In this document: in pieces, positions 13,301 through 64,000 of the stretch
Layout of the letters: every line of letters begins with the position of its first letter
Position numbering within the stretch: the first letter of the stretch is position 1
Assembly: GCF_964355755.1 (NCBI RefSeq)
Contig: NC_092678.1
Coordinates: 12,620,922 to 12,684,921, forward strand
Direction: 5' to 3'
Source: Antedon mediterranea
Lineage: Eukaryota > Echinodermata > Crinoidea > Comatulida > Antedonidae
Length of the DNA stretch: 64,000 bases
Made by a program: the position numbers and the translations under genes
The notes under the pieces: generated by a model
Databases searched by the model: none
Told to the model about the DNA's origin: nothing
What the model saw: the letters and a program-made list of their open reading frames with translations, nothing else

Positions 13301-16300
13301 ATTAGGGCATTAGGTTAGATCAATCACACTCCCACACCTCAAAAGACAAGGCCTGCTATTGGTTAATAAAGGACTTAAAGCAACTTACTGAGATCTAAAT
13401 GTTGAACTTTTGGGCGATCTGTGTATGGATCATTTTTGTACAATGTATCCAGTATCTTCTCCTTTACTTGACTGATGCTGTCACAGCTAAGAACTTTCAC
13501 TTTTTGAAATTCACCACTGTCAGAATTTTGTATTGCATTCAGTGTCTGTAAATTAAAAAAAAAATATATTTTTAGAATATTAAGTTGTAATTAAAGTAAT
13601 TAATATAGTACACACACAAGACAAAGTAAATACAGAGATTAACTCTCACTGTTTACTGTTGTTTTAATAGAAATCCATTGTGGCCATGAAATTTCATCTA
13701 ATAATGAAAACGGAATGAATGTATACAGGGAAATAGAATACATACAATGACTTGAGGACGTTCATCTGACTGAAGGCAATCATCAAGGTTCAATGAGTAT
13801 GTAGCATGTCCAGTAATGGCATCTACTGGACCCATCTCAATCCTTAACTTCAGTGCATGGTACAGAACATACAGTGGGTGCCCGGCATAGTCCTGCAAAA
13901 CACATGAATGTTTAAATGAGCAAATGGCCAAAAAGTTAAGACATTGGAACTGTAATCCATAGCCTTATGCCAAGGGTTTGAGGCTCACTTGCTCCATGGT
14001 TCTGGTGGTAGAACGAGTCTTCTTGGATAGTTAATTGTTTTTAACTGTGTGCTAGTTTATTTGTTATTCTTTTATTTTATTTCATACACATCCAACAGCG
14101 AGCACAAAGTCGCCAATTACAGGATGGATGAAATATTTTATCGTGCTTATAAACTAAGTCTCATTTGAGGGTTAGAGAGTGGAGTTAAAAGAGTCTTGAG
14201 TTACAACCCTGCCACGGGGTCAGGATTGAACCCTGGACCTTCGGATTGGAAGGCAAGCATGTTTTAACCACCAAGCTACAGCTCCACTACAATGCGATAA
14301 GCTATGCTTTTCTGTTCAATGTGCAGTATGAAGACATACTACACTCAGGGAGTGGAAAGAAAAAATTAAAATATAATAGTTTTCACGATAGAACCACACT
14401 CCTACACACAGACTAAGAATTGAACTTATTGGCATACAATTGCATCACAACGCATACGCATTAATAGATGAAAGTCGAACCAATAAATATGATAAAAATG
14501 TGCAATATTTCTGGGTTAATTTCAATGTTTAGTTAATATAAAACTAATAAACATTATAAGTAAATCTTCCAAATGATTATTTTTATTATATGAATGTAAG
14601 AAAAGCAATATAAACATACCTTAAGGCAATTATACATCGATAAAGCTATCCAATTGGACAACAGCTTTGCAGTCACAGAGTCTGTTCTATAAATGTTAAA
14701 CAATAATTCAGTTTGAATATGTTGTAAACATATTTTCACATTTACTGTAACTAACAATAAATAAATTGACTTTCATTGCACCAACATTAACAATGTACAG
14801 TAACATGGTAGTAAAATATTTTCTATTTGGTAGAAAGAATGTGCCCTCTAATTTGCATAGAACACAAGATAATATACACAAGATGACCTGAAGTAGTTAT
14901 GACAGTGAACAACTTTAACAATTTGGTTTGATACTCAATGAAGAAACTAATGCCATGTCTGATCACCTCAGCAACTCCATTTTGCAAAGACAATGATTTT
15001 AACATAGAATACATCTGACTCAAAATAATGAGACAGAAGCTATGATTGAGCCACCGTTTTGATCTTTATTGGATCAATAAAGATTGAAACGTTGAAAACT
15101 GACTTCCCTCTCATTATTATATTTGGATTTAGTTTATTCCATGCTATCTAATATTGGATTAGGTTTGTAGATCATCTTGTGTTTTTGTTGTCTTGCTTTA
15201 GTATAATATCGGATATTATTATATGCTGTTGACAAAGAATAAATAAAAACAAACTGACCTGGCTAGGACCTGCTTGGCTTTATGCGATGACACACAATAA
15301 TCAATGTTGTCTATTAACAAATCCTCAAGTACCCTATAACACAACACAAATTATTGTCAGTTTCATTTATTTACACAATTAATTGTAACCAATAAATGTC
15401 TACATTTGCTGGATTGTTGTGGTGAAACAAGACTTAAAGACACTTAAGGTTGGCTTTCTTCCAGACTATGTATTTTATTGTTTTACTGATAATCTGTATT
15501 AATGTTTGATGAAGTGTGAAATAAAAACGAAAAAAAAAAAAAAAAAAAAAACACGGTTTGTTCAATTTGATTAAGACAAAATGGAAGTAAAATTATTTCC
15601 ATCAAATGTATTATAATATAAAAAAAAGTAATTTACTCAGTAAAATAATCCATTTTATCTTCGATGAGAAATTCCACCACAAGTAACGATGCAATGTTAC
15701 ACCTAAAACATGACAAAATAATACACTTTAAATCATTGTTGAATTACAACTTTTTTTGGAAAAAACTATTAAAAAACTATTGTAAGGACAAAATAATATA
15801 AGAACAAATTAATATTTTTCTTATATATAAATGTTAGATGTAAAATTATGGGAAAAGTGGCAATTTACAATAAAAAATAATCAACATTAGCATATCTTGC
15901 AATCAATTTGGACTACAAGTAGATCACAACTTTATAAGAAAAAAAATGTTTTTTAGAGGAGTTAACATGCAAATATTGAATCCAACAAAAACATGCTAGG
16001 TTATAGAATGTAAGGCTTCATACAATCAAATAGGTTAAGGAGTCTAGCAATAAATAGTGGTGTTATTCACCCTATCCTGTATTGTAATAATTATGGGTCA
16101 AAAAACAATACATCTTACACATTTTAAATTGCTTTCATTTTGCTTAGTCAGTAAAAATAAGTTTGATGTCAGATGTCAAAATAAAATGCATACGTTGTAA
16201 CTATCATCATTAGGCTTAAAACAACAATGTCATAATTAATATGTGATTGTGATTTTTAAAAATTCCATTAAATGGCCTTATTATTAAAATTTAATAAATG

Positions 16301-22300: not shown

Positions 22301-25300
22301 ACATGTATTAAGAGGCAGTTGTAAAAATTGTATATTCTGGCCAGTAAGTTTCATCCACTAAGACACACAACAGAATGCTGAGTACTTTGGCAATAAAACA
22401 AATATGAGAATTCTGTGTACATAATTGAAATATTGGGACATACTTATGAGAATTAATGACATTTTACCAGTTTAAAAGTACAAATTTATTGTATTATAAT
22501 TATAATGGTTATCCTGCAATTTGGTCAGTGTTATGCCCAAATAAGGTCATGTTATGCCTAAATAAGGTCATGTTATGCTTGATTTTAATGATTCACCTGA
22601 TTGAGCTTCTTCCTGTACTTCTTCTTGAATTCTTTCCATTTCAACATAAACTTTTTTGTTTTCTTTGTCATATTGTTTAATTCTTCGTCTATGGATCAGA
22701 AGAATGATTAAGAAGAGAAGTATTGCAACACCTATTACTGAACAAACTACAATAATTATTTCTACTTGAATTTTGGAAGAATATTCGATGGGCCCAAACG
22801 TCACATTAATGTTACCATGCTGAATCTGAAAAGAAAAAAATTGAATTATAATACTATACACCATTATTTTGTTTTTTGTAAAATAATATTTTGAACTTTT
22901 ATATTTTGCAGTAGTTTAAAAAAATTCTAAAAAGCATTTAAAAACATAAATTCTTGGTTGTTGTGGAAAAAGAACAATCATTAATTTGGATATTATACAC
23001 ATAATGAATGTTTATGAGTTGATGGTTAGAATATTTAATAATTTGAAAGATTGACTGCTCCCATTTAACGGGTACCAAGAGTACAATCATAGAGGTGTTA
23101 TAAAAGCCATTATTTGTGATAAAAGATATGTCAATTGCAGAAGATTTGGCAAAATCAGGAGCAGAGTATTTTATTTTTAAATGAGAGGTTACCTCACTTG
23201 GCTTTTAATTGAACTAAAAATTCTATATAATAATATTATAAAATGTCCTTTTCTGTACCATGCTGTCTAAGAGGTTACTTTTAAAAGGAGGAATAATTAG
23301 ATTATTATTCTTGTGATCTGGTGACCACAAACATTTGCTTACCTTAACTATAGGATGATCTTCACCATCTACTGGATTAGGTTCCTTGTCTGGTACTTCA
23401 ACAATAACTACTGTACGTGTTATTGAATTTACAGTGCATTTAACACTTCCTATGAAGACTTCAACATCCTCAATGTCACTAGCAAGGTTGATGTCAGAAC
23501 CCTAATAATAATAAATCACAATCGGTAAATAACTGATTCAATAAGTTCTTTTTCAAATTTTAAAATAAATGTAGCTCAATAATACACTTTACACTGAACA
23601 AAAACTAACTAACTAAATAATTATAAAAATTATGAGATTTGTGTAAACATTTTGTGCAGCAGTAGAAACTAAGTTTGGTTGCTCCTAGCACGCATTGCAT
23701 GATGTAATCACAACACAAGTAACTTGACTATTCATGACACGACTGATGGATCAACCATTGCATCATGATAATAGTCAAATTACTTGCGTTGTCAATTACA
23801 TCTTTCCATTGTGTTAAGTAGAGTTGATTTAATGCTTTTACGCAATACACTGCTGAAGAAATAAAACTATATATTTACAATCAACTTTATAAATTCATCA
23901 ATATCTTTGTCATATCTGTATATTCCATCTACTACAGTCTCTCCATAATAAGACATATTATCAAAGGGATAATATATTGGATTAGGGTAAACTGAGAATC
24001 CAAAATCACCACTCAATGTAAGAACGAAACCATCAAATGAAAAGGTCAAAGGTAAAACTGTCCGGTCTGTCTGTCGTCTGCTACGACAACCTGATGTGGA
24101 GAGATCAGCTGGTGGACTTTCACAATCCATCTCCTCATTTGACAGAATTATACAGATCTGAAAAAACAACACATCATTTCTTTATTTATTATGTACATTA
24201 AAGAACAATTTACAAGGAATTTTCAAAATAATTAATTAATTTTCATAAAGTCATATACTTTGCTTAAATCTGACAAAACAATTCTACTTAGTAACAATTA
24301 TAATCAAAATAAATACACAAAAGGCCTATATTGTGTAAATAAGACAGAAGAGAAATCAGAGTGTTAATGTTGGAAAACAAAAACATGATCTTAAAATTAT
24401 CTTTACTTGATAATCAGATGCTTTTGGAGATGATTTAATGTACAATTACATCAGAGAAGGACCTATGCTTGGTTACTACTAGAGATGCAACACAAGCACG
24501 CATGTAACATAAGTGATTTGACCAATCACTAGCGATTGATTATTCCAACCTTTACTTTTCATTGGTCAACTCGCTTGCGTTGGGTTTACATCCTTGAGTT
24601 GCGTCTCTAGTGGCAACCAAGCTTTAAAGCACTCAGATTTTATGGATGGATTATGGATATATTCATATGGATGAATGATATGGATGTAAACATTGTTGAC
24701 ATTTAAGGAAAACCTTTCTTTCTGTTGAAATTTATTATATTAGAAATGTAAATGTATCTAAAGCTTACATTTTCCGCTGATACGCTATTTAACAACATCG
24801 TTGCTTTCTGTACATATTGGAAATTTGTTCCGGTCACTCTGATGTTTTGACCACCTCTGCAAAAATAAGCATTTTAAACATTATCATTACATGGAATATG
24901 GTGCTTTAAGTATGAAGGAGTTTATTGATTTTACTTCCAATTCTTAAAGCCCAACATTGTCACATTGTTTTGTATAATAATTTGATACACTGACCTTTTG
25001 TCAAGGTCAGTACAGTTTGTATCTTACTATAGTAAACAACTCTGCAGGTCTGAACTAGACTAATTGCCCCAACTTTATATTATTGTCTTTTATTATTCTA
25101 GTCTACCAGCCGGTGTTATTTTTGTCCTGAAAGCTCAAGCAGTGTACGTATGAAAGGCCATATGTGTCAAAATATTTTTGTTTTTACTAATATTAAGTCA
25201 AAACTCCGTCAGGAACCCAGATTAGGTCTGAACATTCCTTAAGACTATAATTCTCAAGTATTTTTTTAGATAATAAAATGTTTCTGTCCATTTACAAAAT

Positions 25301-28300
25301 TAAGTATATTAATCTCTCTTCTTCGAGGGCTTGCAGCTAAGGCTATCGCTTAGGTCTAGCATTTTAAGAACATAACATAACACCAGTATTGGAACAGCTA
25401 CATTTGGTGGCCAGTTGAGAAGAGAGTAATGTACAAGATACTTCATCACATTTAAATCACTCCAAAACATGGCTCCAACATTTCTATCTAAAACATTTTC
25501 AAGCCAAAACGGACACTGAGGTCATCACTCAGGCCTATACCTAGACTGCCTTCAAAAAAATATTATGGACAACGCGCCTGTTTCTGGTCAGCTGCTCTTT
25601 GGAACGCCCTTCCAAACTCAATCAGGAATGCCGAATCACTCGACACATTCAAACAACTTCTCAAATCTCACCTTTTTATTTTGCATTTTCATTATTAAGC
25701 TTTTGCTCTTTTATAACATTTTCTGTTGATTGTTCAACGCTTTGAGATGCCCTGTATTTTGCGGTATATTAAATTGAACATTATTATTATATAATTAAGA
25801 AAATTTTTCTTACGCTTGAATGCCTTTATTAGGTTGGAAGTCAGTCACTGTGGGATTTGTAGTGTAATTAAATGTAAGACCATCTCTAACAGCATTTCCA
25901 AATGTAACTGTTACTGCAACTTCAGCTCCAGATGTTGTATAGTTTGATGTTGTACAAATCATCTGGTTTTCATTGATACTGTAAAATAAATCAACAGTGG
26001 TTAGAATTTTGTAAAGATACATCCTTTTGAAGTACGCTCTAAAATTAGTAAAATAATGGTCCAGAATTAGGATCCTGGTGTGGATTGCTATCAAAAAGTA
26101 ATAAAGTATTCCGTGACCATTACATCTATCTGTGGTTTAAAATCGGTAAAGATCTGTCTAATAAATAATGCAAAATATAACCTCCTTGGCAGTCCTAATA
26201 ATCTACATGTCAATCTATATACAAATAAGATTTATTTTGTAACATAACCTGCACCTACGTTAGACTAGACGATAATGTAAAGAATGTTATTTCGTACCTT
26301 GTAACATAACATTCACTTCCATCAATAGATACCATTACATCATTCCCAGTGTTCAGATTGGATCCACTGAATGTTAGTGTAGTTCCACCAGCTTGAATGC
26401 CAAACCTTGGACTCAACTCAGATATAAGTGGATTCTAAAATGAAATAAAAAAATGTTTAATTTAATAAATATACTAATAAAACACAGGTATTACAATCTG
26501 TATGATTAATAATTGTTTTTAATATTTAAAAAAAAAACAAATGTTTTTATACAAACATAACCACAAGTTTAAAAGTTAATATATTTATAGTATAAAAATT
26601 GGTCAGCGGAAACTATTTCATAAAATTGTTAATATCCTTCTCTTTTACTAGTAGGAATGAAAGTAGAGGAGAAGAGTGAAATTGCATTAGTTTCACTCTT
26701 ATCTTGTTCTATCAGGAGTGAAAGTAGAAGAAAAGAGTGAAATTGCATTAATTTCACTCTTATCTTGTTCTAGCAGGAATGAAAGTAGAAGAAATAAGTG
26801 AATGTATCTTCCCTCTTGGCTGGTTCTAGTGTTCATTTTAATATCATGAATACCACAAGTTTACAACAAATATACATGATTACTGTAGAATAAACATTTT
26901 AAAATAACTTTAGTAATTATATAAAAATATTTATTAAGGTTGACTCTTCTACATCAAAGCAAGATTGTGAAATTTGAGTGAAAAAATATACCTGATAGAG
27001 TATGACTACAGGTGCACTTGTCTTTCCTTGAACAGTTATGATGACGTCACGTTGAGAGACACTATCAAACACAGGAGCTTTACATTTCACACTGTGTATA
27101 GTAAATAATACAATTTCCTTTTCACTGATATACACCACAACAATAATTATAATAAAAAAAATAACATGCAATGTTACCCCCAATTGTGAGGATGGATCGG
27201 AATAATGCATGGCACATGATGCTTAATAAACGAACCAATCAAATAGTTTATGGATTCTGTGTGATAAGTTACAGAAGTGCTTTGTACTTCATCTTATGTT
27301 AGAATGGTGGTTTTCCATAAAAGTGTTTTTAGAAAATGTTTGTATAAGATCAGACAAATCTGAGACATCTTAACATGGTAGCAGAGTTGTCAAAGATACC
27401 CGTCTGTAGGATGGGTATCAACTACTTATATTATGATCTGTTTTGCATTACATCAGTGAAAGCTGAATACATACAGTAGCAATCATAATATATTTACTTC
27501 TTGTCCATACACACATTATCACAATACACACAGAGAGAGGCATAGTTGGTTAAACTGAGGGTATTACCTGTGTTGTGCACTGAACCATGAAATAGGTTTG
27601 GTTCACGGTTCAATCTCGTGAATAAGTTAGAACACAGAGAGTGTTCTAACTTATGGGTTGGATTACATGCATATAGTGCACTATCTTCTGGATGAGATGT
27701 TAATCCGTTGGTCCTGTGTGCAACTTGGCTTATGTACAGCCATAAGGATTTTACCAGAAACAAGTACAGACTTAGTGCTGCATAATTAATGTAAAATTAA
27801 ATATTAAAATACCTTTGTAAAGCTATGTTAAATCCATCAGCAACTGTTACACATTCTTTGTTATCTATCATAATGTTGTCAATATCTGACATCATCTGTC
27901 CAAAATCAGTTCCGAACAGTTCAATGACCTCTGTGAAATCAGGTTCAGGTTGAGTAGTTACCGTAGCAACAGAAATGGGATGAGTCTGAAAATAATATTA
28001 GTAAAACATAAAAGCATGATGGATATTTAAAAAAAACAAACATGATTGGTGTAATCATAAAAAAACACCATTGGATATTTTGGAGTAAAACCAATTGCTC
28101 AAATATCATCATTCAGTACCCTTTTCTTCTAATTTTCAGACTAATTGTTATTCTGCCACAAATATATACTGTAATGTAAATTTCACACTATAAACTAGTA
28201 ATAGAGGGCGACTAGTAAACATCATTTCAAACAAATTTAAGTTAGGCTAGGATGCTGGATTTTGAAGGAAGATAAAATGATTCCAATTACCTGAATAATA

Positions 28301-37300: not shown

Positions 37301-40300
37301 TGTCTTGAAAGGAAGATATATTGGTTAATTTGGCTGAACTATCTATCTGATTACAAATAAGGAAGTATTAAACAACAATGATGATTCAGTGTTGACACAT
37401 TATGGTTTTAAATATTTGACAGTGTTTATTCATTCCCCCACAGCTATCAATATTTGCTATCATGGTCCCAATATAAAATCAATTTGAAGGAATCAATCTT
37501 GTATGCTTTGCAAATGTTTGTACAGTAACGTATTACACAATTACAACTGTCCCATTACAACAATATTATCAATATTGTATTTGATTTCCTTATGTACTTA
37601 CAGATGACAGTGAGATTATAACAAATTATGTACATTGCAACCTGGTACAGTATAAACTAAATAAACAATATGTTCATTTCCTTAAAATAATATGTCACTT
37701 GAATTTCAGATCCTTTTATTTTGTTATTATCTTTAGAAAATGTGTGTTTACAATAACAATTTGATAGTTAAAGTAGTGAATTTGAAATATTTTAAATGTT
37801 TATTTTTTACACATGCTTATAAAAAAATTCAGTCAGTACTTACGAAGTAATGGCACTGCAGTCAAAGAATGTGAAGTCAGTGGAAACAAAATCAACATCA
37901 GTTACAGATGAGTGAACTGATAAAATAACATCTACAGAAGCTGTAAACAAATTATTTAAAGGTTAGCTACTGTGTAGGCCTAGGCCTTAATTTCAAATGC
38001 ATTTTATAGGTAAATACAATAATTAAATATTAAATACAAAAATCACTACAAAAAAACTAAATGTAATATTTAATTACTTTTTTTCCAGAGGTAGATAGGT
38101 TTAAATAGTTGGTGCAAATGACTCCCAAAAAATGTGATGTGCCCATATATGGAGACGATGATGTGATATCATTACCATATTTAGGTATATCACTACCATA
38201 TTTGTTTTTTAATTTAGTTTGATAGTGTAGACAGAGCTTAAGATATCACTAGGTTGAAACAAGGGTCACTTTGGGGGAATCCCCTTTTTTGCCAATGTAG
38301 AGTAGTGAGTGCATAATTTCTGTACTCCATGGTGTGTACTAAAACCTATTTCCTCATGAGCTATTAATAGTATTACACCTCCTACTGGTGAGAATGCATA
38401 CCATGTGTGAAATACTAGTACAGCCACTGCTACAGTTACATTAAATAAAGAAAAATAAAACAGAAATTAAAGCATATTAGCTAATGTTTAACTCACATTG
38501 GCTGGTTGGTATTTGTGGCACATGTGATAAAGGCGGTGAATTACAAGTCAATGTTTCTGCATCTTTTATTGCAGATGATTGAAAGTCACCAAATTTACAA
38601 TTATAATTTTGGTTGATGTTTAAGGGAGGAAGTTGCTCAACAGTTAGAGAAATCTATGGAGAAACACATTTAAGCTATTGGAGTTGCATACATATTCAAA
38701 CTTGTTATTAAATAATTGTATAATTCCCTTTGTGAACAAGCATCACAAGCCAGATGTACACTGGATCTCCAGCCAGTTTTGAGTCCAGAATTATTATGGC
38801 CGAGGAGTGGCTTGAATCCTAATATAGATGTGCCGATAATATAGATATAGTTGGTACTAGTACCCCTGCCTTAGTAGTGCTTAAATTATCCAGATAATGG
38901 CAACATTAGTTATTTAAAAAAATATTACAAGCCTAGAAAACAAATTTAATAAATTGTTTTCACAACTCACGCTGATATTTTCAAAATTTTTAGGAATAAA
39001 AGGTGGTTCAACATTTGTAATCTCAATGCATTGTGCACTGTTTCTTGGCAACCAGGGAGACTGTTGGCATTCTTTAAATCTGGTACATCTAAAATAAAAA
39101 AAGACAAATGTAAGTGCTATCTGCACTAAAGAACATTTAAATTTTTTATTTGTATTAGGGTTTGTTTTAAACTGTTTGTATTTAAAAAAAAATATTGAAG
39201 AAATAATTAAGCCTGAAATAATTTAGTCTTTAGACAGTAAACTAATTTCTAACATTTATTTTCATAGTTTATTATTTTGCAAAAATATCTGAAAAAGTTA
39301 AAAAACAAAAAAATCTCCTAATAATTTGTCAAATGCATCAGGAAAAGACAAAATAATAATTTGGGATTGAAAAAAAAGAAAAAGAACTCTTACTTTTTGT
39401 GTAGTGTACACCATCCACAATAAGGATCTGCATCTAGTTGACCTGGTCTGATACACTCATCACATGTGATAAACTGACTGCAGTTTGCAACTTGTAGTTT
39501 GACCAACTAATTTGATAATTGTATTAAAAAAAAAAACATTAAGACAGAATATACAAATTAAAAACCTATCACAAATTTACCATTAACATTTTCTTAGGAT
39601 ACAATTGAATGGTATTTGTAAAAGTTAGTAAGAAATATTTATAAAACTAATTTGAAATCAGAGGCGGATTGCTATAAGATAATAAGAATAATAAGGAGAA
39701 GGGCTATTGTCGGTTTATCCAGGTAAGCTAGGCACGAAATAGATTTATAAAGCGCACATATCTACAAAGTGCTCAAGGCGGTCTATAAACGCTTAGACGG
39801 CTATAATTCGTGACGTTGCAAGCAGTCTTTATTATAGACATTGCTATACTGCAGTCTAACCTCTAAGCGGTCTTTAAAATTAAAGCCTACTCGAAGGAAT
39901 CTTTACAGCCTTAAAACCTTTCTTTTTGTTGCTTTTACATATTATTTATCATTAAAGACAACAAATTGAACGAGTTTTAAATGTTAAATCAAATAATAAC
40001 GGTAATTTTGTTATTATATAGGCCTAGAATAGATTTTCTCATGTAGAAATGTACTTACTGTTGTGATTACGATTTGAACAAGCGTGACGAACATTACCTT
40101 ATTTGGTGTTCTACACGTAAAGTACACCTTCAATTTGTTACTTTACGCGGCCTTAGCTAAGACTGTTTTATAGCAATGGTCTAACAGGGGTGGCTTTAGT
40201 AAGACCGTCTATCTGATAAAGCCGGCTTTAATTGGGGAGTTAAGACCATCAGTTAAGACTGAAGGGATTTACATTAAATTACAAAAACCTAGTCCTTATT

Positions 40301-42654
40301 TGTGTGAACAATTTCATCTGGTTTCTATGTGGAATAAATTAAAGTTCGTAGATAGTAGTAAACCAGTGTAGCTGTTAGCTGGATGAATCTATCTTCAAAC
40401 TTTACTTATAGTCCTTCTTATAGGGTTAAAGACATCAGACAAGTATTAAAATAAAAAAATGGAGATGGACCGTGTACATCTCGCCAGAACCAACAACAAT
40501 GAATGGACTCCAAAAAGGCACACAAGGTCAAGAAAAAACAAAAACAAGATGGAGGGTTAATATGCAGCATTTGCTTGCATCCTGAATGAGTACTGCACAT
40601 GACAGGAACAAAATAGCTGGGAGAGGCATTTGCCCTGCAGTGGGCAGACAATGGCTGAAATGATGATTTCTGTTCTTGTAACAAAGGAAATATATTATAA
40701 GAATAAACTAACCTTTTTTGCTGTGAGTGCTATTATATAATCAGATGTTTCATTTATAAATGTGTCTGACCTGACCTCTTGACCTGTATCTATGGTGACA
40801 GTCTCATACACTCCAGATGAGGTTTTGTTGGTTAACTCAACCTTAAAAACATTAACAATTTAATCAATTTAAGACATAGTTCATTCAAACATATTTCTAC
40901 ATTTAAGCATGGTTAAAACTAGTCAAAATTAGTGACAGAATGCTAGTTTAGTAGAACAACCTGTGAATAAATGCTGCTGACAAATATGCATGTCTTTGTA
41001 CCTTATCTTAGGTCTTAATATCACCAGTCTTTCAGGTTCTTTTAAATTGATAATTCATAGTATTTTTATATAAACCATTGTCATGTACAGTACTAATTTC
41101 ATACTAACCTTAATAAGTTGTCCATTATCTGTGCCTATAAATGCTATTGTATGGTTCTCTTCAATTGCTGTAGTAACTGATGTTAGTATTTGATCATTAA
41201 CTGTTAGCAATGCCTCTGATACTGCTGCTTCTGTGTAGGTACCTTGTGAAAAACGTCTGTATAGTTGCCTACCATCATTTGGTGGACACATCAATGACTG
41301 AACATCAGCAGCAGTAAAACTGAAAGACTTCATTATCAAAACCAAATTATAGTATACAGGTATTAATAACTTGAACTTGTACAATTTCAGAATTATAATA
41401 AATCCACTTTTTATTAAAAACAAATCAGAATGAGTGGTTAGACTGATTTCCTAGCATTGCCATACAATTTTAGTAAATGCATGCATGTAAATCTACATGT
41501 TTGAAATGAGATTGAACAAGTATTGGTCAAACAAGCATAAGCCACATCAAATACTGTTTGAAATAAGTTTGAAAATAAATATACAGTAAATATCATACTT
41601 GTGAACAATCTGCATCATCAGCATAGTCTAGAGTATAAACATTACTATCAACGTTTAGACATCCATTGAGTGCTTTGAAGAATGCATTTTCAGTATCATT
41701 CCACTTGTAAATACACAATGCAGATTGTCCAGTTGCAACTCCACTTCCATCACCTTTAGCAAACACTCCATACAATACATTATCTCCAGCTTGTAGGCCT
41801 AGTGAGATAGCTAACTCAGATCCTACAGGGCCGATAGACATGGCTTGTACCAAGTTGTAATCAACATTATTATATACACAGCTGAGGTATATCTCAGATA
41901 ATGTATGAAGTGAGTTTTTTTGACAAACACGACTCAGTCGTGAAGTTTTGTTGTTATTCTCACCGGGTCTAAATGCAGCAAAGTAAGTATATCCTTCATA
42001 ATCAAATGCTGTTTTAAAACGTATAGGTTTATTGTAAGATGGTGTCACTGTGATAGCATTGAAATCAGGGTTTGGAAGTTGAAATATTTTCTCAGTATCA
42101 ACACGTCTTCTGGCATTAACATACTTGTAAGAGTACTCTACTGGATCCAATGATGTATGTCCAGATGACACATATAAAACATTTCTTTTGATAACATCAT
42201 CTTTATCATTTGTACCATCATCCAACACACCAGGTGCAATGATTCCAACTGCTGACAGTTCACTCACTATTCCATCTTCAACATTACTTCCATCTAAAGT
42301 TAAATCCAAAACAGATCTTCCTTCACATCTTCCATTGTTTCCTCCTCCACACGTGATCAATCTATCATGATCATAATCAATTTCTAATATTTTATTAACG
42401 TTAGCACAATCATCTGCTGAACATGTTGAAATATTAGCAATGATGTTAAAATCCTCTGACAGTCTGTACAGTGAGTTGTAAGCTCCTATGTAGATATCTC
42501 CTGTTGTACTATGGATTTTGACATGGTACAGATCTTCATTTTCATGAGGTTTAAATTCGAGTAACATATCATTGTCAGATGCTTGTATGCTTATCAGAAA
42601 TGTTGAAGAATATAGCAGAAATACAGAAATGTTTAACAATGTTGGCAAACTCAT
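4484..42654 (-). CDS. Plexin receptor, complete 36-exon gene
   Basis: Single-pass receptor for semaphorins, acting at the plasma membrane; its cytoplasmic domain is a Rap-type GTPase-activating protein with a Rho-GTPase-binding insert. Coding exons: 42654-41599, 41297-41109, 40841-40713, 39506-39394, 39088-38971, 38653-38497, 37940-37844, 35275-35161, 31876-31742, 30867-30766, 30113-30026, 28457-28291, 27985-27813, 27091-26992, 26434-26298, 25978-25814, 24856-24769, 24157-23879, 23501-23343, 22825-22597, 19256-19114, 18509-18391, 15702-15637, 15333-15259, 14686-14620, 13892-13746, 13545-13389, 9719-9607, 7972-7849, 7309-7224, 7024-6911, 6774-6608, 6473-6326, 5335-5198, 5095-5021, 4621-4484. 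Phases agree at every junction and the sum is 5,673 nt, giving 1,890 residues, the usual plexin length. No in-frame stop remains. The ATG opens a hydrophobic signal peptide. The RSRR site recalls B-type plexins, but A versus B type is not settled. A 5' UTR intron may exist: the sequence just before the ATG ends a pyrimidine-rich tract with ATAAG. Confidence 0.93.
5478..5770. repeat. About 105-bp tandem repeat, three copies, intron 33
   Basis: Three imperfect units each hold a CATTGCCTTGACATTT-like core, then TTTGAAGGT and an A-rich stretch. They lie in plexin intron 33. A long minus-strand open frame (5438-5809) is a by-product of AT-rich repetition. Confidence 0.7.
5921..6320. repeat. 51-bp minisatellite beside splice donor, intron 33
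   Basis: About eight near-identical 51-bp units (core CCATGTTGGACGATACTGG, then TCCCTGGCAGTGAACC and ACTAGGCCTACAACA). As 51 is divisible by three, both strands show long open frames (plus 6057-6506, minus 5921-6499) of repeated peptide. On the minus strand the array starts right at the exon 33 donor (CAAAA/GTAAGTAGG at 6326/6325); the GTAGG of the donor region belongs to the repeat edge. Confidence 0.95.
7849..13545 (-). CDS. Plexin exons 27-29: Rho-GTPase-binding domain
   Basis: Exons 13545-13389, 9719-9607 and 7972-7849 encode about residues 1472-1602, the ubiquitin-like Rho-GTPase-binding insert that splits the GAP domain. Landmarks are [40 protein letters not shown] and [13 protein letters not shown]. 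Splice sites are canonical. Introns 27 and 28 are swollen by a TIR-transposon composite and by the 41-bp minisatellite. Confidence 0.92.
8079..8973. repeat. 41-bp minisatellite, about 22 copies, intron 28
   Basis: Highly homogeneous tandem units of 41 bp (GGGCACAGTGTGTTGGACAT, then TGGATTACTGATTGTGAATAA). Scattered variants (TGCTGG, GATATT, GAAATT) allow copy tracking. One early unit is shortened. There are no spacers, so this is not a CRISPR. It lies in plexin intron 28. Confidence 0.96.
8974..9130. repeat. Possible SINE/dispersed repeat remnant
   Basis: The words TTTAGGCAGGACAC and CATCCAGGTGTATAAAATGG resemble a dispersed repeat common in marine invertebrate genomes, recognised from recall only. 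It abuts the 41-bp array. No tRNA-like head is visible. Confidence 0.35.
9930..12041. mobile_element. TIR DNA transposon (hAT5-like), intron 27
   Basis: The left end CAGGCCCGTATGCAG and right end CTGGATACGGGCCTG are inverted repeats. The flanks carry TATCT on both sides, a 5-bp target duplication. A related TIR pair with a 5-bp duplication bounds 46985-51842. A GC-rich segment with CGAGCGAAGCGAGC follows the left end. The element contains a second, hAT-like element from 10159. No transposase frame survives, so this is a non-autonomous composite. Superfamily by TIR and duplication length only. Confidence 0.6.
10159..11720. mobile_element. hAT-like element, right end missing (copy A)
   Basis: It starts CAGGGGTGGCGCCAGGAT, a hAT-type terminus. 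The interior (10165-11700) is near-identical to 48177-51180 (copy B), apart from insertions in B. Inside is a roughly 320-bp direct duplication (about 11046-11340 and 11366-11665), with GTAAACTTCGCCTGG and CAACGTTGAACGATTCG in each half. Here the right end stops at TTCCCCGACG, whereas copy B continues to an inverted terminus. Non-coding. Confidence 0.65.
12300..12445 (+). mobile_element. LINE-type 3' tail
   Basis: The sequence ends with AAATAAAGTTGAATTGAATTG, a TTGAA-repeat tail like that at 1675-1697. This suggests the 3' end of a non-LTR element in plexin intron 27. Coding sequence is not recognisable upstream. Confidence 0.45.
12446..13388. other. Plexin intron 27 remainder
   Basis: No gene, RNA or clear transposon was recognised. 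The plus-strand open frame at 12646-12897 has no recognisable similarity and AT-rich composition. Confidence 0.4.
13746..19256 (-). CDS. Plexin exons 21-26: GAP domain, first half
   Basis: Exons 19256-19114, 18509-18391, 15702-15637, 15333-15259, 14686-14620 and 13892-13746 encode residues about 1266-1471. Matches to the plexin GAP C1 half are clear: [58 protein letters not shown], and [18 protein letters not shown]. The conserved arginine pair before T-(E/D)-S-V reads Ala-Arg here, across the exon 24/25 junction. Confidence 0.93.
14060..14290 (-). mobile_element. tRNA-derived SINE (tRNA-Gly-like head)
   Basis: On the minus strand from about 14288, GCTGTAGCTTGGTGGTTAA matches a Pol III A box, GCCTTCCAATCC resembles a tRNA-Gly(TCC) anticodon arm, and CAGGGTTCAATCCTG matches a B box. 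The body to about 14080 (CGCCAATTACAGGATGGATG in plus sense) recurs without the head at 21255-21345. A functional tRNA is unlikely, because the stems are incomplete and the body is attached. Plexin intron 25. Confidence 0.65.
15420..15552 (+). mobile_element. Poly(A)-tailed retroinsertion end
   Basis: GAAATAAAAACG followed by an uninterrupted run of about 21 A looks like the 3' tail of a retrotransposed sequence in plexin intron 23. The body upstream was not identified. Confidence 0.45.
15760..16760. other. Plexin intron 22, AT-rich, nothing recognised
   Basis: There is no coding potential and no recognised repeat between exon 23 and the inverted-repeat element beginning near 16786. Confidence 0.4.
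16786..17532. mobile_element. Inverted-repeat element with GACC/GACAG arrays
   Basis: It starts AGTCGCGTGCTACAATGC and ends TTCCACGCGACT, giving inverted ends AGTCGCGTG / CACGCGACT. Internally there are two arrays of CCGACAGACAGA words, each followed by CATAGTGAACTATA. A shorter relative with the same ends lies at 60133-60332. Non-coding, MITE-like. Plexin intron 22. Confidence 0.6.
17533..18390. other. Plexin intron 22 right part
   Basis: AT-rich, with overlapping short open frames on the minus strand (17829-18064) that show no recognisable similarity. Nothing else was seen. Confidence 0.4.
19565..22113 (+). mobile_element. Helitron-like element, intron 20
   Basis: It begins TCTATATATAAATTTACG after an A and ends in CTAG before a T, as expected for Helitron insertion between A and T without target duplication. 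The 3' end is a GC-rich hairpin (arms CTAGATGG.ACGC / GCG.ACCATCTAG, one mismatch here). Copies in the opposite orientation lie at 32654-34210, 48679-49954 and 53789-59995. This copy is longer because an interior segment is repeated (19840-20120 and about 20600-20945) and other sequence, including a SINE body at 21255-21345, was added. No helicase frame, so non-autonomous. Confidence 0.75.
21255..21345 (-). mobile_element. SINE body fragment
   Basis: CAACAGCGACCATAATCTCG, then GCAATTACAGGATAG and GTGCTTATAAATTAAGACTC match the body of the SINE at 14060-14290 without its tRNA-like head. It sits inside the Helitron-like element and was probably captured by it or inserted into it. Confidence 0.5.
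22597..28457 (-). CDS. Plexin exons 12-20: PSI3, IPT repeats, TM helix
   Basis: Exon 12 (28457-28291) carries PSI3 (CSRCYSMNT...[10 protein letters not shown]). Exons 13-19 encode IPT folds, including [18 protein letters not shown] and [19 protein letters not shown], the repeated start of an IPT. Exon 18 has R-S-R-R at about residues 1068-1071, a furin-type consensus. Exon 20 (22825-22597) holds the membrane helix (about residues 1212-1234, [20 protein letters not shown]...), then HRRR and a charged coiled coil ([14 protein letters not shown]) typical of the plexin juxtamembrane segment. Confidence 0.92.
22826..23342. other. Plexin intron 19
   Basis: Nothing recognised beyond splice signals. 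AT-rich. Confidence 0.4.
24160..24768. other. Plexin intron 17
   Basis: AT-rich. Around 24460-24620 is an imperfect inverted repeat (TGGTTACTACTAGAGATGCA against TTGCGTCTCTAGTGGCAACC), probably a MITE remnant. A looser pair occurs at 23680-23800 in intron 18. Confidence 0.4.
25340..25795 (+). pseudogene. LINE reverse transcriptase C-terminal fragment
   Basis: Plus-strand frames read [20 protein letters not shown], then [19 protein letters not shown] and [27 protein letters not shown], the standard C-terminal end of L2/CR1-type non-LTR reverse transcriptases. Small frame breaks are present. The 3' end approaches ATTATTATTAT, a microsatellite tail. It lies in plexin intron 16, antisense to the gene, and ends close to the exon 16 donor. 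Confidence 0.8.
26640..26830. repeat. About 65-bp tandem repeat, three copies, intron 14
   Basis: Units contain GAATGAAAGTAGA, GAGTGAAATTGCATTA, TTTCACTCTTATC and TTGTTCTA. GAGTGAAA and TTTCACTC are inverted, so each unit can fold back. Non-coding. Confidence 0.8.
27619..27652. repeat. Perfect inverted repeat (hairpin), intron 13
   Basis: Arms ATAAGTTAGAACAC and GTGTTCTAACTTAT, 14 bp each, flank the 5-bp spacer AGAGA. GAACACagagaGTGTTC resembles a loosely spaced steroid-receptor palindrome; function unknown. Confidence 0.7.
28458..29215. other. Plexin intron 11, AT-rich, nothing recognised
   Basis: No genes or repeats were identified before the SINE that begins near 29260. Confidence 0.4.
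29260..29582 (-). mobile_element. tRNA-derived SINE (Leu/Ser-like head)
   Basis: On the minus strand from about 29582, ATGGCCGAGCGGTTAAGGC is a strong A box of the class II tRNA (Leu/Ser) type, and AGGGTTCGAGGCC is a B box. The spacing allows a long variable arm. An unrelated body extends to about 29260. Acceptor-stem pairing is poor, so this is a SINE and not a tRNA gene. Plexin intron 11. Confidence 0.7.
30026..35275 (-). CDS. Plexin exons 8-11: PSI2 and second IPT domain
   Basis: Exon 8 (35275-35161) encodes [19 protein letters not shown], a second PSI domain. Exons 9-11 (31876-31742, 30867-30766, 30113-30026) encode an IPT-like fold with paired cysteines (YECELEIEA ... ANITCSQYT) ending [11 protein letters not shown]. 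Together they span residues about 620-766. Intron 8 is enlarged by a nested transposon pair. Confidence 0.88.
30870..31740. other. Plexin intron 9
   Basis: AT-rich, no recognised elements. Confidence 0.4.
32292..35095. mobile_element. hAT-like transposon with 8-bp duplication, intron 8
   Basis: The ends TAGTGGCGTATCCAG and CTGGATACGCCACTG are inverted. AATAGAAG flanks both sides (32284-32291 and 35096-35103), the 8-bp target duplication of hAT elements. About 1.25 kb of its own sequence remains around a nested Helitron-like insertion (32654-34210). No transposase frame survives. The right end lies 65 bp from the exon 8 donor. Confidence 0.85.
32654..34210 (-). mobile_element. Helitron-like element nested in hAT, intron 8
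   Basis: In plus sense it starts CTAGATGGCACGC (the 3' hairpin end) after an A and ends TTTATATATAGA before a T. It is therefore a minus-oriented copy of the family at 19565-22113, inserted between A and T. An internal segment of about 240 bp is duplicated (33226-33470 and 33490-33730). The open frames inside have no recognisable similarity. Confidence 0.78.
35342..37843. other. Plexin intron 7, nothing recognised
   Basis: About 2.5 kb of AT-rich sequence. No conserved coding segment, SINE or TIR was recognised. Confidence 0.4.
37844..39506 (-). CDS. Plexin exons 4-7: PSI1 and first IPT domain
   Basis: Exons at 39506-39394, 39088-38971, 38653-38497 and 37940-37844 encode about residues 459-620. 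The cysteine-rich start ([14 protein letters not shown] ... [11 protein letters not shown]) is a PSI knot. A first IPT/immunoglobulin-like fold follows and reaches FFDCSAITS. Splice sites are canonical and phases run 0-2-0-1-2. Confidence 0.88.
39700..40270. repeat. Unclassified dispersed repeat, intron 3
   Basis: The segment has a different texture from its surroundings, with words such as GCGGTCTATAAACGCTTAGA and GGGGTGGCTTTAGTAAGACC. It probably derives from a transposon, but no ends or coding relic were found. Confidence 0.35.
40430..40680 (+). pseudogene. LINE C-terminal fragment (RTE/R1-like)
   Basis: Plus-strand frames give [17 protein letters not shown] shifting to [16 protein letters not shown], a KTRWR-like segment, [10 protein letters not shown] and SGQTMAEMM. 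This resembles the end of non-LTR retrotransposon proteins (W.GHIAR..D..W...). Frame-broken. The antisense open frame at 40418-40684 is a shadow. Plexin intron 3. Confidence 0.6.
40713..41297 (-). CDS. Plexin exons 2-3: end of sema domain
   Basis: Exon 2 (41297-41109) and exon 3 (40841-40713) encode residues 353-458 and finish the propeller. They include [12 protein letters not shown], the usual last-blade GT..G..K motif. The exon 2 acceptor is GTTCAG/TCATTG at 41298/41297. An earlier AG at about 41311 would put a stop in frame, so the chosen site is the one that preserves the reading frame. Confidence 0.9.
41599..42654 (-). CDS. Plexin exon 1: signal peptide and sema domain
   Basis: Encodes residues 1-352. 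Residues 1 to about 25 form a hydrophobic signal peptide ending in SIQA. The rest is most of the sema beta-propeller, the semaphorin-binding module, with the family-typical segment [16 protein letters not shown], then [11 protein letters not shown] and [19 protein letters not shown]. The donor is TCACAA/GTATGA at 41599/41598. One large first coding exon holding most of the sema domain is common in plexin genes. This exon has two further copies and a relic on the plus strand at 60.5-64 kb. Confidence 0.95.
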
Positions 42655-45800: not shown

Positions 45801-47449
45801 ACACTAAAGTTTAGTATGGCCAAATATATGGTACTCTTGAGCAGATAACTGTATAATAACAGACTACTCTTTGGTGCTACCTCCATCTAGACTCAGTGAC
45901 CATATACCATTAACACTAGTGATATATATTTCCCTTAAATATTAAGTATTTCACTTCACTCAATAAATATTTAAGTACCTGTATTTCTACTTCGGGAAAC
46001 ACTTAAAGTTAAAAAAACTCACCTATGGTGACGTGAATACAGATATCATAGAACCTAAACATACGAGCCAACTATCAGGCAGAGATCAGTATGTGGCCTA
46101 AATGAATCGGGTCGTTTGGAAGCACCTAACCCAGTTGTCAGTTTGGAACTTGTTACATGTGTATGTAAACTAAAGAGCCAGATGAAGTTGTTACAGAAAG
46201 CATGCATATGTGGTTGTGATTCAATCGTTTGCCGTTACCTAGATGGCCAGTAGGCATTATATATCAGTGCTTGAAGAAATACACACCTCAGAGCGTTACC
46301 TCCTTCCATCCCAGAAAAATTTTGAATATTGGCATGTGCCCATGCCGCCCATTACTCCCAACCCACAAATCCTCTGTGACCGTTTTTAAATGAAATTTAA
46401 GACATTCCAGTAGGCCTCCAATTTCGGTTATTTTGATACTCTAGGACTCATCCTCTCCATTCCTTGAACACCTTCCAGGAGTGAGTCAAAAAGTTTAAAA
46501 TCTTCCCAGTACAATTCTGGTCTTTTTGACACCACACTATAACCATCAGCCCAAGACTATCATGAACATTATATTTATTTCAATTATTAATACCGATAAT
46601 GAACAGGTCTGTGCTCTATTTGACCTTATGACCTTGAAAATGACCTTTAAACTTGTACAGTAAGTTAAAAAATTGATGAACTTCACCATCTGCAGCAATA
46701 TGTCAATAATGATCCAATAATGGTTACATTTCTTTTAATTAGCTTATATGTTGTTGAAAACAGCTTAAACCTCTATTTTACCATATTTGACCTTACAACC
46801 TTGAAAATGACCTTTGACCTGAAATTTGAGAGCGGCATCCACCCCTATCTTTGTTGTCATCCCATAAGGGATATATTCCACATGGTTGCCTGCTATTAAC
46901 AGAAAATGCCCCCCATGATGAAAAAGCACACATTGGCCGCCCTACTATATTTATTGATAAGTATCTTTGATGGATGTACAGTTACAGGTCCGTAGCCAGG
47001 GGGGGTTTTTATGGTTCGGGCGAACCCCCCCTTTACAGCGAACCCCCTTAACCAACTGCGAACCCCCATCCCCGACTGCGAACCCCCATCCCCGACATGC
47101 CCAATACCTCACCCTCATCTCCAAAAATCCTCCAAATACGTGCCCCACAGTACAAAAAGTTGTTTGTAAATTGAAAAATTCGTAAACTTGTTCGTGAACC
47201 TTCTTCTCTGTATGAGCGTCAACTAGTGATACGTGTCTGTAAATTTCTAAAAGCTGCAAATGAATTGCCGATTTTAACCTGAAAAATAAATGTTTGGTCC
47301 CTGCATGTAACATGATATTGACGCGTCTCATAGCGAGCTGGCGCACGAACGATTCGTACAAAGGACACCGCCAGACAACTGCGTACCTATTGTTTAGATC
47401 ACTGGCAGTCAGGCAGCATGCATAAAGTATAGCCTTCCGACGTACATCA

Positions 47450-48176
47450 GTATTTATGTGCGACTATGAAGTATAATGTATCACTTACGATATCATTAAC
47501 TCTCACATTTCTCCTATCAGTATTCCATTTTTTCCGAGGTACTAATAACGGGAACACATCTCTTATCCAACATTTCCAGAAACTATCAACGATGCGTTGC
47601 ATAAACTCGAATCGGTGTCTTGGATTCTTCGTATCCCGAAATGGTCCATTTGATATTCCACTTGATGCTCGTCCTAACAAAATATCATTTGGACATAAAT
47701 AGCTACCGTCGTCCGGGTCATTCGGAATTCTTCCTATTGGTCGTTGATTCACTAAGTTACTAACTTCCATGAAACAAGTTTGCAACTCAAACGGCGTCAT
47801 GGTTTGTTGCCCAATGGCTTTTCTTAAAGCAAGTTTACAGCTTTTGACTAGTGACTCGGCACATCCGTTTTGGTGCGGTGCCAATGGCGTTGTAAATTTC
47901 CATTGTACTCTTTTCTCGGCTCAAAACTCCTTTAACTCCTTTTGATCAACAATCGATGTATTTACAGGCCAATCCTCCTCAGGCAAGTATAAGAACTCTG
48001 GTCCAATTCGCCATCTTCCGTTAAGCTGTTTAACTGGTATGCCACGTGATACATCGTCTGCTACATTATGCTCACCGGGGACGTGTCTCCATTGCGACGG
48101 CTCTGACATGCTCTGTATTTCTCCAATTCTATTTGATACAAATGACTTAAAGCCTCTCGCTTGGCTTCTTATCCAT
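47450..48176 (-). pseudogene. BEL/Pao retrotransposon pol fragment
   Basis: Minus strand. At 48170-47921 it reads FKSFVSNRIGEIQSMSEPSQ, WRHVPGEHNVADDVSRG and PEFLYLPEEDWP, the linker after RNase H. At 47910-47450 it reads QWKFTTPLAPHQNGCAESLV, LVNQRPIG, LCPNDILLGR, FWKCWIRDVFPLL and NVRVNDIV, the integrase C-terminal part. The two parts are almost adjacent, so the integrase zinc finger and the first catalytic acidic residues are deleted. No LTRs seen. Dead fragment. Confidence 0.85.
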
Positions 48177-60530: not shown

Positions 60531-60725
60531 ACATGACTTATTCAACAATGTGTTTGTTATTGTATGTTCTATAATAATGTTAACGAAATGTTCAACATCT
60601 GCCCACAATCTACTTCATCAATTTAAAGTCAGCCAAAATAATAAAAATGTGCACTGTATCACATCAAAATCCATGATAAAACAAGAGACTTCTACATTGT
60701 ATAATCTACACTGTTATTCACTGTT
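60531..60725 (+). pseudogene. Relic of a plexin sema first exon
   Basis: From ATG at 60531 the DNA aligns to the start of the sema exon at 63079 (ATGACTT.TTCAA; then AAATGTCAACA; then CTTCATCAATTTA against CTTCTTCAATTTA). The later part (CAAAATCCATGATAAAACAA then GAGACTTCTAC) aligns to the 60986 exon near 61120-61150. Two stops follow the signal-peptide segment and similarity fades after about 60725. A dead, truncated copy. Confidence 0.65.
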
Positions 60726-60985
60726 AGGTATCTGTACTTCATTGACGAAATAAATAAAATGATAGCCTATAGGCCTACTGTTACGTATAAACTTACAGCA
60801 ACAATTTGGTCATATTGTGCCATACTCTTCGGACTCGACTATATCAAAAAACGAACAGGCTTTTTAATAATATAACATGATTAGCACAATAGCTAAAATA
60901 GGCATAACGATTAATTGTACTTTTTCTCATATTCTGTATTTTACAGTACCGGTAAGGTAATGATGCTCTTTCATCTTTAATAATA

Positions 60986-62035
60986 ATGAGTTTGTCAAAA
61001 ATGTTAAAGATTTTTGCATTTTTGCTATATTCTTCAACATTTCTGTTAAGCACCCAAGCATATGACAATGATGTGTTACTTGAATTTAAATCATATGAAA
61101 ATGAAGATCTGTACCATGTCAAAATCCATAGTACAACAAGAGATATCTACATAGGAGCTTACAACTCATTGTACATACTGTCAGAGGATTTTACTATTAT
61201 TTATAGTATTTCAACATGTTCATCAGGTGATTGCAATAATATTAATAAAATATTAGAAATTGATTATGACCATGAACGATTGATCACGTGCGGAGGAGGA
61301 AACAACGGAAGATGTGAAGGAAGATCTCTTGTGGATTTGACTTTAGATGGAAGTAATGTTGAAGATGGAATAGTGAGTGAACTGTCAGCAGTTGGAATCA
61401 TTGCACCTGGTGTGTTGGGTGATGGTACAAATGATAGAGATGATGTTATTAAAAGAAATGTTTTATACGTGTCTTCAGGACATACGTTATTGGATCCAGT
61501 TGAGTATTCCTATATGTATATTATTGCTAGAAGAAGTATTGACACTGAACAGCTATTTGGACTTTATAGCTCTTATGTCAATGCCATCAGACCGTCTTAC
61601 AATAAACCCATACATTTTAAAACAACATTCTATTATGAAGGATATACTTACTTCGCTGCATTTAGACCCAATGATATTGATTACTTTCATTCTCGACTGA
61701 GTCGTATTTGTCAAGACAACTCATTTGATACATTTTCTGATATCTACATTCGTTGTGTTGTTAATAATGTTGATTACAACTTGGTACAAGCCATGTCTGT
61801 GGGTCCTGCAGCAGCTGATTTAGCTACCTCACTAGGCCTACAAGCTGGAGATAATGTTCTGTATGGAGTGTTTGCTAAAGATGATGGAAGTGGAGTTGCA
61901 ACTGGACAATCTGCAATGTGTATTTACAAGTGGAATGATATTGAAGATGCTTTTTTCAAAGCTTTAAATGGATGTCTTAACGTTGAAAATGATGTCCATA
62001 CTTTAGACTATGCTTATGATGCAGATTGTTCACAA
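60986..62035 (+). CDS. Plexin-like sema first exon, plus-strand copy
   Basis: An open 350-codon exon: signal peptide ([20 protein letters not shown], cut near STQA) and most of a sema domain, collinear with plexin exon 1 and about three quarters identical by eye. It keeps the [22 protein letters not shown] and CIYKWND motifs and the same donor position (TCACAA/GTAAGC at 62035/62036). No exon 2 follows before the next sema copy at 63079. It is either the first exon of a second plexin gene with a long intron, an alternative first exon sharing later exons beyond the window, or an orphan duplicate. A putative 5' UTR acceptor (TATTTTACAG) lies at about 60950. Confidence 0.88.
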
Positions 62036-63078
62036 GTAAGCATGATATTCTTTTTGCCTTTATATATAATTATATAATTGGTCATTAGCCAGTAGATATG
62101 TGCATTATAATACTTCTGTTCCACAAGATCAGTTAATTCTGGTTAGGTTTCCAACCAGTGTGTTAATTGGTAATAAGAACATTTATTTATTGCATGTCAA
62201 ATACCTGACTTCTGCATCAACATTACCTGTTTTTCTGTAATTATAAATTAACTATGAATATAATCGTATGAAGTTGCTATATTGAACGGTACCTTTAAAA
62301 CCTAAATGTTACATTTTAGAACTGTTCAAATAGCAAAACAAACAAATTATTTAGGCCTGTTTTAAAAAAAATCAACAATTAGTCATGTAAATTTTATAAT
62401 AGAGCCAAAATATTTTTTTTTCATATTTCATACAACACAACAAAGTGTAATACCTAAAGAAACTTATTTTTATATAAAGACAACAAATCAATATTTTTTT
62501 AAAACTTTACAAACCAATAATTTTTGAATAAAACCAAAATATTGCCCCAATGAAAACACAAACAAAAACATATTTAGTATCATCAAATGTGATGTAGGCG
62601 ATCAACATTTGTGATATCAGCTTTGGTTTAGATCAACACGACACTGTCCTCAGTTTGTAAATTCATACACTAGAAAGCGTTGTTGATTTAACGAACGTCT
62701 TCAGCACTAAAGAGGCTCAACGAACGAATTTTAAGTTGTTCAATTCATCAGAAATTAAATTGAGTAAAGAAAACAAAACAACAAACATTTTATTGTTATT
62801 CTTATTTGACCAATATTTATTTTGGCTTCCATTTTATACAAAATGAAAATACTAATATTGATTTGGTGGCGTTTGGAATGCAAAAAGCACTATTGTCAAT
62901 ACAGCTTACGTGAATTGATATTATTTCAAAGTTCATAATAACACAAGATGTACGACTGTGGTATAGAGGACATATCAGCGGTAGTTATTTCCGTGTAAAA
63001 TACAAAGGTGAGTTGGTTGCTTGCATTTAGAGTCTGTCTAATTTCAGAGACCGTCAATTTTAGTATTCGAGGTTCAAC
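62036..63078 (+). other. Sequence between the two plus-strand sema exons
   Basis: AT-rich. No sema tail (exon 2/3-like) segment is recognisable. It would be intronic if the 60986 exon is spliced to something beyond the window, and promoter/5' UTR for the 63079 copy. Confidence 0.5.
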
Positions 63079-64000
63079 ATGACTTGTTCAAGAATATTAA
63101 TTGTGTTTCTCGTATGTTCTGTAATATTTCTGACAAAATGTCAACAATCTGTCGACCATGTACTTCTTCAATTTATATCATATAAAAATGAAGATTTGTA
63201 TCACATAAAAATACAGGAGATATCTATATAGGAGCTTTCAACTCACTGTACAGACTGTCAGAGGATTTTACTATTATTTATAGTATTTCATGTTCATCAG
63301 GTGATAATATTAATAAAATATTAGAAATTGATTATGACCATGAACGATTGATCACGTGTGGAGGAGGAAACAACGGAAGATGTGAAGGAAGATCTCTTGT
63401 AGATTTAAATTTAGATGGAAGTGATATATATGATGGAATAGTTAGTGAACTGTCAGCAGTTGAAATCATTGCACTTGGTGTGTTGGGTGATGGTACTAGA
63501 GATAAAGATGATGTTATTAAAAGAAATGTTTTATACGTGTCATCTGGACATACGTCATTAGAATATTCTTACATGTATGTCAATGCTAGAAGACGTCTTG
63601 ATACTGATGTACTATTTGGACTCATCAACCCTGCTTCCAATGCTATCACACCATCTTACAATAAACCTATACAATTTCAAACCGCACTTGATTATGAAGG
63701 ATATACTTACTTTGTTGCATTTAGACCCGATGATACTGATTACTTTCATTCGCGACTGTGTCGTGTTTGTAAAGAAAATTCACTTCATTCATTTTCTGAG
63801 ATCTACATTCGTTGTGTTGTAAATAATGTTGATTACAACTTGGTACAAGACATGTCTGTGGGTCCTGCAGGAGCTGAGTTGGCTACCTTACTAGGTTTAC
63901 AAGCTGGGGATAATGTCTTGTATGGAGTGTTTTCTAAAGGTGATGGAAGTGGAGTTGCAACTGGACAATCTGCATTGTGTATTTACAAGTGGAATGATAT
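63079..64000 (+). pseudogene. Third sema first exon, frameshifted, runs off end
   Basis: ATG at 63079 opens a signal peptide (MTCSRILIVFLVCSVIFLTK) and the sema start (LQFISYKNEDLYHIKIQ). About 10 nt are missing at about 63214 relative to the other copies (ACAGGAGAT versus CATAGTACAACAGGAGAT), so this frame meets a TAG shortly after. In the shifted frame the rest is open to the window end ([20 protein letters not shown] ... LYVSSGHTS ... [12 protein letters not shown]). Loss of one cysteine in SCSSGDNIN is another change. Pseudogene, sequencing error or an upstream small exon spliced at ATACAG/GAGAT are all possible. Partial at the 3' end. Confidence 0.75.

Follow-up and report, generated by a model that had tools for sequence, protein, structure and literature searches.

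As a rule, plexins are conserved guidance receptors that are few in number, and the presence of several related plexin first exons within a short stretch of the genome of the crinoid Antedon mediterranea raises the question of whether these exons multiplied on their own, in front of a shared receptor body, or as parts of complete genes. The stretch analysed here (the window; 64,000 nucleotides, C9:12620922-12684921) contains a complete minus-strand plexin gene, M4, and the 5' end of P4, its head-to-head neighbour on the plus strand. Positions beyond 64000 are given in continued window coordinates, that is, with the numbering of the window carried past its end. An earlier note on this DNA had reported three full-size copies and one decayed copy of the exon, and had suggested exon-level duplication as their origin.

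All three full-size copies are present, although one of them is damaged. Exon 1a of P4 (60986-62035, plus strand) encodes a signal peptide and the first part of the sema propeller, is open over 350 aa and ends in the donor CAA|GTAAGC. Exon 1 of M4 (41599-42654, minus strand) is open over 352 aa and shares about 77% identity with the 60986 copy. The remaining copy, exon 1b of P4, starts at 63079 on the plus strand, runs to the end of the window and, according to the genome search, extends about 94 bases beyond it, to about 64094 (C9:12685015). In tblastn, its first 49 codons (63079-63225) and the sequence from 63204 onward matched in different frames; the DNA alignment of the copies traces this to a frameshifting deletion, a gap of 10 bp near 63212, and the exon is otherwise open. 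Its donor reads CAA|CT as opposed to CAA|GT in most other copies, and a weak GT site that keeps the phase was noticed by eye 6 bases downstream of the lost donor. The decayed copy at 60531-60725 (plus strand) is also genuine: alignment to the other copies identified it as derived from the 5' part of a b-type exon 1. Its local alignment with the start of the 63079 copy scored 165, whereas 200 shuffles gave no more than 77. As previously stated, the two plus-strand copies of P4 have no exon 2 between them. Extension past 64 kb showed that both precede a single exon 2 (C9:12692599; 71678 in continued window coordinates) and a single set of GAP exons.

To place these copies in a genomic context, we searched the whole assembly (354 Mb, 18 contigs) and scored all candidates for exon 1 (30/30), exon 2 (18/18) and GAP exons (86/86). 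The 60986 exon had 26 matches in the genome, with E values down to 9e-236 that exclude chance. Thirteen were full-size (74-100% identity) and located at C9:12.23-12.92 Mb, and the others were partial, decayed or distant. With exon 2 as query, 11 of the 16 matches fell inside the same cluster, as did 11 of the 12 matches to the IPT exon. The plexin cytoplasmic model identified 57 exons, all on C9, which inside the cluster form five minus-strand and six plus-strand sets. Thus, 13 copies of exon 1 are accompanied by 11 copies of exon 2 and 11 GAP sets, and the array is mainly a gene-level one. It consists of 11 plexin genes, M1, M3, M4, M5 and M6 on the minus strand (class M) and P1 to P6 on the plus strand (class P), arranged over 770 kb as five head-to-head pairs plus an additional gene, P2. 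A single exon 1 is present in nine of the genes, and so nine of the 13 copies have a gene of their own, whereas two copies occur in P3 (12575653 and 12581495) and P4 (12681907 and 12684122). A pure array of exons is ruled out by the 11 bodies, and exon-level duplication holds for only two of the six plus genes, in which two sema exons stand before a single exon 2 and a single GAP set.

Several other features were noticed in the course of these searches. P2 has no minus-strand partner, and none of the plexin queries used matched within the roughly 133 kb between P2 and M3 (C9:12364318-12497871). Incomplete or stop-interrupted relatives of exon 1, exon 2, the transmembrane exon and GAP exons lie about 1-2 Mb away, at C9:13.85-14.09 Mb and 15.18 Mb, and the cytoplasmic model located further plexin genes on C9 near 2.46, 3.44, 5.82 and 5.99 Mb. 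A search with the Sema model (20 matches) found inside the cluster only the plexin exon-1 copies and no semaphorin ligand genes, with the proviso that semaphorin exons can escape this search. The search for mitochondrial cox1 gave no match. On contig C1, positions 15552879-15553076 matched the Bindin model PF02084 (E 2.3e-28, 66 of 238 positions, one stop in the matched frame). This match points to an echinoderm genome, bindin not being known outside that group.

Within the window, the structure of M4 could be followed from head to tail, all on the minus strand. Exon 1 is followed about 280 bp downstream by exon 2 (41100-41321), and then by a PSI exon (approximately 39393-39511), an IPT/TIG exon that is common to all 11 cluster genes (25813-25977) and a transmembrane exon specific to class M (22583-22828). 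The cytoplasmic part includes an exon that ends at the GAP arginine pair (15259-15333), the exon after this pair (approximately 14620-14686) and GAP exons at 13773-13907, 6550-6777, 6320-6472 and 5243-5344. Directly after the 6320-6472 exon, positions 5922-6322 form a minisatellite (51-bp unit, 7.9 copies, 97% matches), through which the open frame of that exon continues. Between M4 and P4, open frames at 46951-47920 (minus strand) resemble by eye integrase fragments of an LTR element.

Domain models agreed with this structure. The Sema model scored 27.4 bits for the 60986 copy (cut-off 23.7) and 23.6, just below the cut-off, for the 42654 copy, and Drosophila Plexin A matched exon 1 with an E value of 2.2e-26, the aligned part being residues 50-369 of a 715-residue chain. 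In M4, PSI (26.4 bits) and PSI_PlexinA-B (33.1 bits) were above their cut-offs and PSI_Plexin-B (26.7 bits) was just below its cut-off of 27; the second and third PSI exons of the cluster matched the plexin A/B and B models, the latter just below the cut-off. TIG (61.8 bits), Plexin_RBD (58.3 bits) and Plexin_cytopl (117.2 bits, and 66.6 bits in P4) were also found. The cluster genes are therefore plexins by their domains, with sema, PSI and IPT/TIG parts outside and a RasGAP fold with a Rho-binding insert inside.

The cytoplasmic tails differ from those of other plexins at the arginines of the GAP domain. An intact plexin elsewhere on the contig, at C9:5.82 Mb, has retained LRFW and the two arginines of the LLMRR junction, and solved plexins align across both arginine sites. 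At the junction, which was read in M4 and P4, M4 has QVLA|R, with alanine for the first arginine and the second one retained, and P4 has LALSK. The LRFW site, whose arginine we take to be the second conserved arginine, reads SKFW in all five M genes (in M4, within the 6320-6472 exon) and EMFW in all six P genes. Thus, the arginines of a catalytically competent GAP (RR plus that of LRFW) are incomplete in both classes, M4 keeping the second arginine of the pair. PMC3787391 ascribes functional importance in plexin RapGAP to the arginine finger and to a further conserved arginine; the cluster plexins share with such active plexins the same domains and a GAP fold above the cut-off, but not the essential arginines, which are substituted in both classes. 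Based on these residues, P tails are predicted to lack RapGAP activity and M tails to be weakened; our initial idea that M tails have no GAP function left was toned down in view of the paired arginine retained in M4. Signalling would probably be weakened or proceed by another route, such as binding, decoy or co-receptor functions.

A comparison along the genes revealed a sharp difference between heads and bodies: the sema head, which reaches from exon 1 to about exon 2, has diverged among paralogs far more than stalk and tail. For exon 1, DNA identity averaged 0.858 among M genes, 0.859 among P genes and 0.852 between the classes; the corresponding values were 0.864, 0.900 and 0.886 for exon 2, 0.981, 0.959 and 0.955 for the IPT exon, and 0.997, 0.964 and 0.519 for the FW exon of the GAP domain. 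The tails therefore fall into two classes, 96-99.7% identical inside each and 52% across, and the transmembrane exon is class specific as well (94-99% among the five M genes; one weak P match at 31%). Exon 2 itself is divided in this respect, with an average of 80% in its first part and 94% from YTEAAV onward. In 1-kb windows, M4 and M5 were 91.7% identical in the first, flank-containing window and 84.8-85.8% in the three from 42.3 to 39.3 kb, after which identity was 93.1% in the next window and 93.6-99.7% throughout the rest. Likewise, P3 and P5 were 82.5-89.7% identical in the head and 91.5-94.8% in a transition, followed mostly by 95-99% with dips to 91-95%. Since the divergence of the heads includes introns, it points to an older divergence of this region and not to selection on the protein alone, and it could partly be due to homogenised bodies instead of selection acting on the head.

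Phylogenetic trees gave a similar picture. The FW tree separated the two classes completely (100/100), while the exon-1 tree was star-like, with M5 placed together with P2 and P5 (100/99), and the classes were monophyletic in none of 200 bootstrap exon-1 trees. On the other hand, the class labels required two changes on the exon-1 tree compared with a shuffled mean of 4.2 (11-12 of 500 shuffles were as low), which implies that exchange between the classes has been limited. P4a grouped with the 3' part of P4b (92/93), as expected from conversion within the gene. Beyond exon 1, the P4 ectodomain with its introns (61-89 kb in continued coordinates) aligned better to that of M4 (43300-24000 of the window) than to that of P3, with summed blocks of about 12.0 kb for M4-P4 and about 7.2 kb for P4-P3. 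Matched ectodomains are not a rule of head-to-head pairs: they are absent in M5-P5 (8.3 kb at 84.7%), and the case of P4 therefore looks like a single transfer, in which an M-type ectodomain would have come onto a P-type tail.

Exon 1 is under constraint overall (medians for 78 pairs of copies: dN 0.12, dS 0.33, dN/dS 0.39). The distribution of changes was examined in 12 of the 13 exon-1 copies, P5 being left out as it is near-identical to P2. In these, non-synonymous changes are clustered and culminate around residues 190-205 of the 60986 protein, at a level that was reached in none of 500 permutations; dS is also high there. The segment with the highest dN/dS lies in the signal peptide and was not significant (p 0.068), so that these copies give no evidence of positive selection.

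Judged from sequence comparison, the cluster is probably a plexin family particular to this lineage, in which the ligand-binding heads have diversified, the two tails are altered, and head exons undergo birth and death. The heads would bind ligands and may have diversified through mutation, gene conversion and unequal exchange, whereas the bodies may have become uniform through recent copying or homogenisation. The likely result would be many ligand-binding heads presented on two tails. For P4, we suppose that splicing skips exon 1b together with an LTR element and joins exon 1a directly to exon 2, which would give an intron of 9.6 kb.

How the additional b exons should be understood depends on the history of the doublet. 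Exons 1a and 1b lie 9.6 kb and 7.6 kb upstream of exon 2 in P4, and about 6 kb and 214 bp upstream in P3, whose exon 2 is at C9:12582722 and which lies about 105 kb from P4. The spacer between the two exons of P4 (62036-63030, plus strand) is homologous to that of P3 (85.8% over 697 columns, 90.3% over 279 columns) and partly to that of P6 (70.3% over 448 columns), in which a 200-bp relic of exon 1b remains (C9:12921973-12922164). It follows that the doublet predates the split of P3, P4 and P6 and decayed in two of them.

One explanation is simple birth and death, by which exon 1b and the relics are functionless by-products of unequal crossing-over and each gene has a single head; we judge its prospects to be evenly balanced. 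It accounts for the decay of two of the three b exons, and for the 5' relic corresponding to 60531-60725, which is present in five of the six plus genes (P1, P2, P4, P5 and P6; P3 has its 3' part only). It also agrees with the sequence upstream of P4 exon 2, where a relic of the 3' end of exon 1 (70268-70363 in continued window coordinates) and a 6-kb LTR element (64267-70234) were found. The latter, whose LTRs are 98.0% identical over 448 columns and whose frames appear by eye to be of retroviral type, lies between exon 1b and exon 2. What this explanation does not predict is that P3b is open over 345 codons, nor that P4b, with dN/dS of 0.25-0.42 in comparisons with the other 12 copies, was constrained until the frameshift, which suggests that it was used until recently and that its function was lost late.

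The opposite explanation treats exons 1a and 1b as alternative heads on one receptor body, used under regulation and to the exclusion of each other. Alternative first exons on a shared body had been raised in the earlier note, and in P3 and P4 two first exons do precede a single body. In P4, however, the frameshift and the donor mutation rule out exon 1b as a working head and hence as an ordinary alternative one. With P4b broken and P6b a relic, the doublet is fully open in only one of the three genes that had it. This gene, P3, has the donors CAA|GTAAGC and CAA|GTATGA ahead of one exon 2, and its two exons may be mutually exclusive heads. A neutral P3b would be expected to have gathered 5.0 stops at 0.13 changes per site, and only 0.25% of 400 simulated copies were stop-free, although its dN/dS against the other 12 copies is on the higher side (0.38-0.61). 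Acceptor-like AG sites were noticed by eye ahead of the start codon. The distance from AG to ATG is 31 nt in P4b, so transcripts that joined its exons 1a and 1b would be out of frame; this would speak for exclusive use. On balance, we consider regulated alternative heads unlikely.

An assembly artefact or unmerged haplotypes, which bodies of up to 99% identity might suggest, are very improbable given that the heads differ by about 15%, the spacers carry different mobile elements, the retrieved loci (L001-L015) contain no N and the orientation alternates along one contig. Secreted sema-only products, also proposed previously, would be in keeping with the signal peptide and open frame of the exon but are hardly credible, since exon 1 encodes only part of the propeller, has no stop at its end and on read-through gains 13 codons before the frame stops in the intron.

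A diversified plexin family remains the preferred interpretation, and an expanded plexin set is, in kind, already known in echinoderms. Eight Plexin-B genes (Plexin-B1 to -B8) are described for Acanthaster planci in the accessible part of PMC6374515, which also cites an expansion in sea urchin. The present cluster resembles that expansion in its lineage-specific multiplication and in the sema, PSI, IPT and GAP domains. In that part, the paper deals with counts, classes and domains, and not with an array, head-to-head pairs, exon-1 doublets, divergence between head and body or loss of GAP arginines. No description of this arrangement was found among the titles by which the literature was judged, which is weak evidence as the coverage of subscription papers was thin. 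A variable head on a conserved body is known from clustered protocadherins and paired immune receptors. Similar to these, the cluster has a diverse extracellular first part and near-identical downstream sequences; unlike them, most heads here have a complete gene of their own and a shared body occurs in two genes only.

A more far-reaching possibility, which appears less likely still than alternative heads, is that the cluster is a recognition receptor locus, in which heads would be partly exchangeable between two head-to-head classes, P3a and P3b would be selectable by splicing in at least one gene, and tails without the canonical RapGAP arginines would serve self, gamete or immune recognition and not axon guidance. 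The view of the window itself has changed: most exon copies are parts of whole genes, and the close pair is a decaying doublet. An old and diverse head combined with a near-uniform body and tail and altered GAP arginines would show that plexins have turned into a variable recognition family, and the cluster offers a concrete place to test the purpose of the echinoderm plexin expansion.
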